DNA from: Candidatus Solibacter usitatus
GTDB lineage: Bacteria; Acidobacteriota; Terriglobia; Bryobacterales; Bryobacteraceae
Reading direction: 5' to 3'
DNA: 64,000 bases
Assembly (NCBI GenBank): GCA_016191645.1
Contig: JACPVQ010000205.1
Location: 1 to 64,000, forward strand
The position numbers and the translations under genes are program-made. Below, piece after piece: positions 21,815-24,832 of the stretch. Each line of letters opens with the position of its first letter. Within the stretch, counting starts at the first letter, position 1. The notes under the pieces were generated by a model, which did no database searches, was not told where the DNA came from, and was given only the letters and a program-made list of their open reading frames with translations.

Positions 21815-21968
21815 GGTTTGCGCTAACTGTCATCTTAGCAGGGTGGGGCAGATCTCCAGATCTGCGGAGGGGTCTCCAGACCCCGACTCGTTCGCGCAGC
21901 GAACGATGGCCGCTGCGCGGCCATGCGGGATCTGGAGATCCCGCTGCTCGACTTTGGCCTTTTGTCCT

Positions 21969-23411
21969 TCACCCATTGGCGTAGCAAACAGCGGATGCGA
22001 TAGGGAAAGAGTATTTCTCCGGCTTCCTATCTGCGGGCGGTTTCGACGCGAAGCCGGAGAAACTATCAATGCCGAGGCCGCGTCCCCAAACCTCGGCACG
22101 CAAGTTATGCAGCAGTTGTTGTGTTGAGTTGCGTGGGCCCTTGGAACTGGCAGCCCATTTGGGTTGGGGCAGCAAGCCCTCGCTGGAATGGCCGAAGGCG
22201 CGCTGCCCGGCGACCAGCAGCATGCCATAAGCAGCGACGGTGAGTGCTGGGGCGGATTCGACGGAGGTCTCCGCTCGCACCTGTGCTTGGCCAACACCGA
22301 GCAGAGTCTTCTCGTCACGGAAGTTTACCTCGATGTCCCAGCGCTGGAAGTACGATTCGATGATCGTGCGCGGGTCCAGTTCCGGGTCGGTGCAGATGAG
22401 GAATGCGGGATCGCGATAGAGCAGTTTGGAGCCTTTGCGCAAACGGTAGGCAAGCGGCCGGATGACGATCAGTTGCAGCAACTGGGCACCCGTTGTGCGC
22501 CATAACAGATGGGGAATGCGTTTATAGCAGAGTGTATGACTGATGCCGGAATGGACGAACGTCATGGTTTCCCAGGGTTGGGAATCACTGCTGCGGAATT
22601 GATCGGGAGTGGGAGCGGCAGCGCCGTAAACAAGACGGCGGCCCTGAGCTTTCCTCTGGTCAGAGTCCGGCGGAAAACACAGATTGGCATCTTTTCGAAT
22701 TCGTCCGATACAGACGGTGTGAGGTGGAATTTGCTTCAACACAGTGGAGTTGGTGAAGCCGCCGTCGAAAGCGAGTAATAAGGTGCGGTTGCGGCCACCG
22801 GGATCCAGATCCAGGGACTGGCGGAGTAGAATCATCTGCTGGGCAGCACGCAGACTGAGCCGGGACGAACTTGCGTCCAGACGGTATTGGGTGCGGTCGG
22901 CGTCGGTAGCCTGACGACCCGGTTTGGGCGGCGTGGGAGCGTGAAGGAAGGCAATGGGAGCCAACCGGAATGCTCCTTCTTTGCCGGGCATGGCGGCGGA
23001 GATCTGAAGAAAGCGCTGTGCACGTACGAAGTTGGTCTGGAAGCGCGGCCCGAGCGGATCTCGTCGCCAAGCCACTCCTGGCGTATGCAGACCGGAGCGG
23101 CGCAGGAGTGTATCGTCGATGACGGCGCGAAACGGTGCGCCGGCGGGCAGTTCGTCGGCGATCGCACGGCGGACGACAGAGAACATCTCCGGCAGGGGAA
23201 GCCGATCATGAGAGAAGAGTCTATAGGAAGCGCTCCAATCGCGAAACTGAGAGCCGGAAGTGGTGAGTAGGCCAGTGACGGTGCGGCGGCCGAGACAGAG
23301 AAGAGAGCTCAGCGCGAGGGTTTGCGCGTGATCGGCGACACGGCGCTGTGGGAAGGCGGGGAGGCATTGGTTCCAGAGGTGCTCGAACTGGGGGAGGAGA
23401 CCGGCGGAGTT
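21969..23411 (-). CDS. IS DDE transposase (frame 2, likely produced by -1 frameshift from the upstream AbrB-like ORF)
   Basis: NSAGLLPQFEHLWNQCLPAFPQRRVADHAQTLALSSLLCLGRRTVTGLLTTSGSQFRDWS...YFQRWDIEVNFRDEKTLLGVGQAQVR; open continuously to 23411 with no ATG/GTG/TTG until 23186. Confidence 0.8.
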   Translation of the reverse strand, partial: NSAGLLPQFEHLWNQCLPAFPQRRVADHAQTLALSSLLCLGRRTVTGLLTTSGSQFRDWSASYRLFSHDRLPLPEMFSVVRRAIADELPAGAPFRAVIDDTLLRRSGLHTPGVAWRRDPLGPRFQTNFVRAQRFLQISAAMPGKEGAFRLAPIAFLHAPTPPKPGRQATDADRTQYRLDASSSRLSLRAAQQMILLRQSLDLDPGGRNRTLLLAFDGGFTNSTVLKQIPPHTVCIGRIRKDANLCFPPDSDQRKAQGRRLVYGAAAPTPDQFRSSDSQPWETMTFVHSGISHTLCYKRIPHLLWRTTGAQLLQLIVIRPLAYRLRKGSKLLYRDPAFLICTDPELDPRTIIESYFQRWDIEVNFRDEKTLLGVGQAQVRAETSVESAPALTVAAYGMLLVAGQRAFGHSSEGLLPQPKWAASSKGPRNSTQQLLHNLRAEVWGRGLGIDSFSGFASKPPADRKPEKYSFPIASAVCYANG

Positions 23412-23596
23412 TTTTTTAAAGCGGACGGCGGAGGATCGCGACGATGCAGGGCAAGCAGGGCCTTATTCTCGACAATCCACTCGACGGTTTCGCCGCGAGA
23501 GAACTCCATCGCCTGAGCGAGAGCAGAGGGAAAGTTGATATACCACTGCTCGCTGGCAGCGCGTTTGATGAGTTGGACTTTGGTGGGGAACCCCAT
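23309..23596 (-). CDS. AbrB-like short ORF of the IS (frame 1)
   Basis: MGFPTKVQLIKRAASEQWYINFPSALAQAMEFSRGETVEWIVENKALLALHR resembles a SpoVT/AbrB fold; the remainder is a low-complexity tail. Confidence 0.65.
   Translation of the reverse strand: MGFPTKVQLIKRAASEQWYINFPSALAQAMEFSRGETVEWIVENKALLALHRRDPPPSALKKTPPVSSPSSSTSGTNASPPSHSAVSPITRKPSR
23411..23417 (-). other. Candidate programmed -1 ribosomal frameshift heptamer A_AAA_AAA
   Basis: A8 run on the minus strand (T8 at 23410-23417) read in frame as TTA AAA AAA; a -1 slip gives AAC TCC GCC GGT..., which enters the transposase frame exactly. Confidence 0.7.
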
Positions 23597-23743
23597 GGAA
23601 GATCCTTTCGGTCACACTCTAGTCATATAACTAGATACCACAATTCAAGCAGAGATACAACATGGGTCGCAAGAAATGTTTTTTATCTAGTGAAAGGCCA
23701 AAGCCGAGTCGGCCGCGAAGCGGCCGCCTGGGAGATTCCGTTG

Positions 23744-24832
23744 CTACCGGCAGAGACGGTCTGGAGACCGTCTCGCAGATCTGGAGATCTGCCCCACAGC
23801 GAGGAACTCCTCTAACAGAAGGTGGAAATGGTGTACGCCGTTTTCCCGTTTCACGGAGTAACGTCCGCGATCGTACGAGCGTGATTGCAACCCCTTCTGC
23901 ACGGATTCACAGATGCGGATATCTTCCTGTTGGATCTCATCGCTGAAGGCAATTGCCGCCGGGTCCAACTCCTTCCCGGCGTAACTGAACCATTCAAAAA
24001 TCGTCAACGTCCGGTCGTGACCCAGCGGAAGGATGATGTTGACGCTCAGATTGTCCGGGTAGATGTTCAACATCAAGTTGGGAAAAACCCAATAATAAAG
24101 CGCCTGTTGACCAGCCGCCGCATCATCGTAGCGGCGAGGTTCATCGCGCCCGGACCGCGGCGGACGGATGGGCGCGTACTGTGACGAATAGTAGCGCGCG
24201 GTATCGACGCGATATGCGTTGTAGTCGAGCTCGCGAAACAACGACGGATGCGCGGCGGGCAGATGGTAGCCCTCCAGATAGTTGTCGACGTAAACCTTCC
24301 AGTTGCAGGCGATCGTGTAATCCCGCCTGTGGGCGAAATGCAGCCGCTGAGCGTGTTCAGGAATGCCTTGAATCATCTCAGCGAACGGAATTGCCTGCGC
24401 GTCGAGATTGACAAAAACGTATGGACCCCACTCCGTCAAACCATACGCCGGCAAGCGCACATCTTCCTTCTTCCAACACTCGACGCCCTCAAATTCCGGT
24501 GCGTTCAACAGGTTGCCATCCAAGGCGTAGGTCCACGCGTGATAAGGGCAGCGAAGCGATTTCGCATTCCCGTGCTCTGAAAGAATCACGGATGCGCGGT
24601 GGCGGCACACATTGGAGAACGCTCGCAATATTCCATCGTGCCCACGTACAACGGCGACAGGCTCGCCGGCAATCTCACCGGCGCAATAATCTCCGACATT
24701 TGCAACCTGTGCCCGGTGGCAAAGAGGCTGCCAGGTTCGCCAGAAAACACCTTCCTTTTCAGCGTTTAGAAAAGACGGGTCCGTATACCATTGCGAAGGA
24801 ATTGTGGACGCGCGTGCTAGGTTGGGCTCCAT
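23744..24832 (-). CDS. Rieske-type ring-hydroxylating / choline-monooxygenase-like oxygenase alpha subunit
   Basis: CRHRASVILSEHGNAKSLRCPYHAW (Rieske C-x-H/C-x2-H); CNWKVYVDNYLEGYHLPAAHPSL (mononuclear Fe site); C-terminal VGQISRSARRSPDRLCR is encoded by repeat copy B. Confidence 0.92.
   Translation of the reverse strand: MEPNLARASTIPSQWYTDPSFLNAEKEGVFWRTWQPLCHRAQVANVGDYCAGEIAGEPVAVVRGHDGILRAFSNVCRHRASVILSEHGNAKSLRCPYHAWTYALDGNLLNAPEFEGVECWKKEDVRLPAYGLTEWGPYVFVNLDAQAIPFAEMIQGIPEHAQRLHFAHRRDYTIACNWKVYVDNYLEGYHLPAAHPSLFRELDYNAYRVDTARYYSSQYAPIRPPRSGRDEPRRYDDAAAGQQALYYWVFPNLMLNIYPDNLSVNIILPLGHDRTLTIFEWFSYAGKELDPAAIAFSDEIQQEDIRICESVQKGLQSRSYDRGRYSVKRENGVHHFHLLLEEFLAVGQISRSARRSPDRLCR

Follow-up and report, generated by a model that had tools for sequence, protein, structure and literature searches.

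ISs that recode their mRNA usually join an ORF for an HTH or zinc-finger domain to the catalytic ORF. In IS1, a short in-frame DNA-binding ORF (InsA) meets an out-of-frame catalytic ORF at an A-rich slip site, and a ribosomal shift yields the fusion InsAB'; the short product represses the IS promoter, and the fusion transposes. In other ISs, known from Deinococcus, Nostoc and Roseiflexus (IS630), recoding takes place by transcriptional slippage: they carry a run of A8-A10 between overlapping ORFs, the length of this run varies among homologues, and both +1 and -1 versions occur (PMC1088944, PMC5009743, PMC3711429).

The 64-kb stretch of DNA analysed here (the window) holds an element that is like these systems, since a short DNA-binding ORF is followed at an A8 run by an out-of-frame transposase. 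Unlike IS1, it has a transposase of another family and an N-terminal domain of the AbrB type, and repression of its promoter is a proposal. It differs from the slippage ISs in its first ORF, none of the AbrB type having turned up for any IS in the literature searched, which was mainly freely available articles, and here slippage is a prediction. In this element an AbrB/MazE-type domain would fill the role usually taken by HTH or zinc-finger ORFs, and would do so in the IS4/IS701 branch, which is reputed for a single unbroken transposase gene. On balance, we think it probable that the element is a working IS and one transcription unit with two products, in which slippage makes an AbrB-transposase fusion and ORF1 represses its own promoter. 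Annotation pipelines will read such elements as two genes or as a pseudogene.

Element and gene layout

The features of the element and its immediate flanks are:

21947..23708, minus strand: complete IS element, IS701/IS4-like, 1,762 bp, bounded by terminal inverted repeats
23693..23708, minus strand: left terminal inverted repeat CTCGGCTTTGGCCTTT, whose tip CT....TTTGGC is common to related copies
21947..21962, minus strand: right terminal inverted repeat AAAGGCCAAAGTCGAG
23684..23691, minus strand: half-site ACTAGATA, directly inside the left inverted repeat and kept in most copies of the alignment
23617..23636, minus strand: operator-like palindrome ATCTAGTTATATGACTAGAG, 20 nt 5' of the ORF1 start
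23603..23608, minus strand: Shine-Dalgarno-like AAAGGA of ORF1, called from sequence
23309..23596, minus strand: ORF1, predicted AbrB/MazE-like DNA-binding protein of 95 aa; the conserved domain is the first 60 codons, 23417-23596
23410..23417, minus strand: A8 slippery run joining the two frames, 0-frame TTA AAA AAA ACT
21969..23411, minus strand: -1-frame DDE transposase of 480 aa and a stop codon, without its own start codon near the N-terminus
23710..23726, minus strand: host hairpin CGGCCGCTTCGCGGCCG, 1 nt beyond the left IS end
21925..21944, minus strand: host hairpin GCGGGATCTCCAGATCCCGC, 2 nt beyond the right IS end

ORF1 starts at the ATG at 23596 behind AAAGGA, reads GCT TTA AAA AAA ACT through the run and stops at 23309; its coordinates (23596..23309), frames and codons are all as originally predicted. 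A -1 slip leads into AAC TCC GCC GGT and a frame that stays open for 480 codons, with its stop ending at 21969, and the fusion predicted on re-reading is 62 + 480 aa, as first stated. In the 5' direction from the slip, a TAA that lies 45 nt ahead of the run closes the transposase frame, and in the window copy no ATG, GTG or TTG occurs in this frame from that TAA to 150 nt past the run. The junction of ORF1, run and transposase is beyond chance, because the A8 at 23417-23410 is the sole A8/T8 within the 64-kb window (shuffled sequence has 2.5 on average anywhere) and nine intact copies, the window copy among them, share this junction. An A8 in a high-GC host also provides a clear test case for slippage versus ribosomal shifting.

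Three further contigs of the same genome break off within the IS at 98-100% identity, C148 and C140 with its 5' end and C183 with its 3' end, and the element is therefore multicopy and recently mobile, with at least three near-identical copies in its own genome. Seven left ends of the IS in another genome (G528) were likewise counted as a sign of recent mobility.

ORF1 is a predicted AbrB/MazE-type domain

The AbrB call made from the letters alone agrees with Pfam profile matches and with a model fold. The Pfam MazE_antitoxin profile (PF04014) matches six of six ORF1 members, the best at 3.3e-5, with the window ORF1 itself below the cut-off at 0.14, and a distant relative exceeds the curated cut-off (26.0 vs 24.7). 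An AlphaFold2 model of ORF1 has a beta-beta-alpha-beta-beta fold (pLDDT 75), and its Foldseek matches in the PDB, which are weak (E >0.6), are mostly C68, MazE, SpoVT, AbrB and VapB. On profile and model together, ORF1 is assigned to the AbrB/MazE type. Domains of this type are known from antitoxins and global regulators.

Transposase and family assignment

The transposase matches Pfam DDE_5 (8.7e-12) and NCBIfam IS701_3 (7e-47), its fold matches Tn5 transposase (E 4e-8), and the acidic residues D99/D100, D216 and E361 are invariant across eight copies. All eight transposases tested match IS701_3 (NF049999), the best member at 3.7e-58; the window transposase scores 160 bits, slightly below the curated cut-off of 170. 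Together with an R...E...K-type C-terminal motif, the IS701_3 match and the Tn5-like fold liken the element to the IS701 family of the IS4 superfamily (NF049999, NF033540; PMC2266710).

The parent IS4 family is characterized by a transposase gene that lacks a frameshift (PMC2266710), whereas here two out-of-frame ORFs, predicted to be joined by recoding, are present in nine intact copies. IS701 members measure 1,400-1,550 bp, compared with 1,762 bp for this IS, and generate a 4-bp target duplication, which was not seen at the window copy or at the ends of L047 and L022; the window copy shows no duplication and the copy at L098 one of 22 bp. Because it departs from the published criteria on frameshifts and on the 4-bp duplication (PMC2266710), the element is called IS701-like and not a member of IS701.

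Conservation of the run and frame relation

Acidobacteriota genomes were searched with ORF1 and transposase queries, which gave a set of nine intact copies (the window, L047, L022, L095, L097, L098, L106, L103 and L102) from nine genomes and four families (f1, f8, f23, f41) of one phylum. Transposase identity to the window copy is 80% for L047, 59% for L022, 51% for L095, 43-45% for L097, L098 and L106, 42% for L103 and 41% for L102. A scan of genome contigs returned one close relative, L047, besides distant IS4-like matches. ORF1 had no match in plasmid and phage collections and none that was confirmed in viral contigs, and all plasmid matches of the transposase were less than 30% identical.

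All nine intact copies have ORF1, an uninterrupted run of at least eight A and an out-of-frame transposase, an outcome of the check suggested with the original prediction that favours recoding; the transposase is about 470-490 aa long and always at the same junction. The frame relation is -1 in eight of them and +1 in one (L102, on a single MAG contig). The run stands as T-A8-C in six intact copies, as A9 followed by G in L047, as A9 in L103 and as A10 in L102. ORF1 sequence 5' of the run has a mean pairwise identity of 69% among the nine, and the tail 3' of the run diverges or ends within five codons. Four copies with a broken transposase (L096, L099, L100, L101) still have the A8, and three decayed copies (L104, L110, L113) have lost it, so that run loss amounts to three of seven decayed copies and none of nine intact ones.

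A +1 frame was considered for L103 and rejected on its tblastn phase and translation, both of which give -1, and another for L101 was rejected in favour of its N-terminal match, which is -1; high-GC DNA leaves false open frames.

The original prediction had noted that homologues encoding both domains in one frame and lacking the slippery run would reduce the case to a simple frameshift mutation, and among copies with both domains we found no such single-frame fusion. With a homopolymer at the junction of a MAG contig, one might suspect a single decayed IS that has suffered a frameshift mutation or was misassembled, but eight other intact copies, each in a different genome from this one, show the same break in frame, and the element has several near-identical copies, which leaves this explanation a negligible probability. 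Because the run and frame relation are conserved in the nine intact copies, we interpret the ORF1-transposase fusion as programmed recoding and not as mutation.

A different possibility is that two separate proteins are made, the transposase arising by termination-reinitiation or from a non-standard start, so that a fusion would be unneeded. In the subclade of L098, L100 and L106 the ORF1 stop overlaps an ATG (TGATG) 24-27 nt past the run, which could provide a separate transposase start by reinitiation, and L097 has a TTG over the ORF1 stop. Related acidobacterial ISs use stop-start overlaps too, some where an AbrB-like ORF precedes an IS1182-like transposase and others where a HARE-HTH ORF precedes an IS701-like one. 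However, in the window copy, L099, L102 and L103 (the last read in its -1 frame), the stretch from the preceding stop to the conserved N-terminal block has no ATG, GTG or TTG, and the A8 is kept even in L097, L098, L100 and L106. We accordingly give separate synthesis little probability for the group; the earlier view that independent initiation looks impossible stands for the window copy, but L098, L100 and L106 could start a transposase separately.

Slippage or ribosomal shift at the A8 run

The first reading of this locus proposed a fusion through a programmed -1 frameshift at A_AAA_AAA and pointed to IS1/IS3-type elements. Its core, a programmed AbrB-DDE fusion, is well supported by the conserved run and frame, and the heptamer is in phase; a ribosomal shift, in which tandem tRNA-Lys would slip back one base on a normal A8 mRNA, is less certain as the mechanism, given runs of 8-10 A, one +1 copy and no stimulator found. 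The heptamer lies in the correct 0-frame phase in the window copy, L022, L095-L101 and L106 and also in L047 and L103, and thus in all -1 intact copies, where it is a valid ribosomal slip site; L047 additionally has A_AAA_AAG. Eight of the nine intact copies being -1, and the two Lys codons directly 5' of the shift being invariant, also speak for the ribosome.

Against this, no stem-loop stimulator was found near the run in most copies (best z near 0, with pseudoknots outside the model), and an upstream Shine-Dalgarno stimulator is absent from most copies, an SD-like motif occurring in L103 only. In intact copies the run always has at least eight uninterrupted A, although the shorter A_AAA_AAG would be enough for the ribosome and is never found in its place, and L102 needs +1 (or -2). 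Taking these points together, we regard ribosomal frameshifting as a contender, though a rather unlikely one.

Transcriptional slippage fits the same observations better. In Deinococcus and Nostoc, IS homologues whose runs number 8 to 10 A have been reported (Baranov and colleagues, PMC1088944), and mixed shift direction within a transposase family has been described as a sign of transcriptional slippage (Antonov and colleagues, PMC3711429). Because run length varies from 8 to 10, L102 is +1, in most copies no stimulatory structure or SD was found with the run, and at least eight pure A are always present in intact copies, we infer that slippage is appreciably likelier than a ribosomal shift. 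This preference stays an inference since the +1 of L102 rests on one MAG contig, in which a one-base homopolymer error would convert it to -1 or to an in-frame fusion. Nine A is the usual slippage threshold, and A8 is short for many bacteria (PMC1088944). Poly-A sites can serve both slippage and ribosomal shifting (PMC3711429), and both could contribute at this run, but we consider a dual mechanism improbable.

Proposed regulation

If transcriptional slippage is the mechanism, RNA polymerase would add an A on the run, turning A8 into A9 (at L102, A10 would become A9), and the slipped mRNA would encode one 542-aa AbrB-transposase fusion as the active transposase. Most mRNAs would be read in frame to give the short ORF1 protein, and the element probably makes mostly repressor, with full transposase only on a decoding slip.

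A palindrome, ATCTAGTTATATAACTAGAT in form, lies just 5' of ORF1; it has 18-22 of 22 positions symmetric in relatives, and is kept in L106 and even in the AT-rich L102. In its own 4.47-Mb genome, with two mismatches allowed, the three IS copies are the only places that have it. A conserved palindrome placed directly before ORF1 and found nowhere else in the genome suggests that unfused ORF1 represses the IS promoter through it, by analogy with InsA in IS1; a sigma-70 promoter scan 5' of ORF1 gave nothing above chance. We envisage that an ORF1 dimer binds the ATCTAGTTATATAACTAGAT palindrome and represses the promoter, and that the AbrB arm of the fusion may in addition recognise the ACTAG half-site located within the left end. 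A low rate of slippage combined with autorepression would keep transposition rare, following the logic of InsA/InsAB' in IS1. The element is a candidate case of a single switchable protein that combines regulator, end-binding and target choice.

Insertion next to hairpins

Hairpins were scored with a stem of at least 7, a loop of 3-6 and a distance of 0-2 nt from the inverted repeat. By this test, 27 of 32 IS ends from several genera adjoin a perfect hairpin, compared with 0.67% of background positions, and the hairpins are unrelated in sequence. In the window's own genome, all IS ends seen lie against a short hairpin that belongs to a repeated hairpin array. Hairpin-adjacent ends were recorded at window positions 23709-23797 and 21843-21946 and at L002, L003, L004, L022, L047, L095-L103 and L169-L181.

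At L098, on an 11-kb contig of genome G459, an exact 22-bp repeat, ACGAGCGGCTTTAGCCGCTCGC, forms the hairpin on both sides of the IS and occurs nowhere else in that genome. In the window's own genome, CAGCGGGATCTCCAGATCCCGCAT is found both on the left of the IS in C140 and on the right of the window copy, and ATGGCCGCTTTGCGGCCAT is common to C148 and C183. The repeat at L098 and these shared flanks suggest that the hairpin is duplicated on insertion. We assume that the two flanks on most multicopy MAG contigs probably come from different copies; in the complete genome containing L096, two different hairpins flank the IS.

ISs that target REP sequences (ISRm22, ISPsy8, IS1397, IS621; PMC1525189) are similar in that their insertion is tied to palindromic repeats. 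However, ISRm22 and ISPsy8 cut the palindrome at its axis (PMC1525189), whereas the present IS sits between intact, unrelated hairpins, with the hairpin duplicated at L098. More tentatively than for the recoding model, we propose a structure-guided IS group, in which the slippage-made fusion might insert beside any hairpin and duplicate it (about 19-24 bp), and the unfused AbrB arm would autorepress via the IS-specific palindrome. If confirmed, insertion next to hairpins and the 22-bp duplication of a hairpin would be an uncommon way of choosing a target.

The arrays themselves are dispersed in the window's own genome and consist of 3-4 successive hairpins (e.g. window 21843-21946). Their hairpins include GGGGCAGATCTCCAGATCTGC, GCGGGATCTCCAGATCCCGC, ATGGCC...GGCCAT and CGGCTGC...GCAGCCG, the second of which alone has 153 exact copies in that genome.

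Related elements

Ahead of two distant IS701-like transposases (L025 and L031, ~38% identical) lies a HARE-HTH ORF whose stop overlaps their start (ATGA), and different DNA-binding ORFs are therefore paired with this transposase group. An AbrB-like ORF of the same type also precedes IS1182-like transposases (L073, L078, L082, L088, L112, L114 and L115-L128), a call made by eye, a Pfam search of the N-terminal fragment having given no match. In this IS1182-like group, of which genome G667 contains eight copies or more, the transposase has its own overlapping ATG and no slip run, and the upstream palindrome is a different, TAGCNATATNGCTA-like one. Other AbrB-like ORFs (L117, L122 and L075) have a CTAGCTTATAAGCTA-like palindrome upstream and do not lie beside this transposase.
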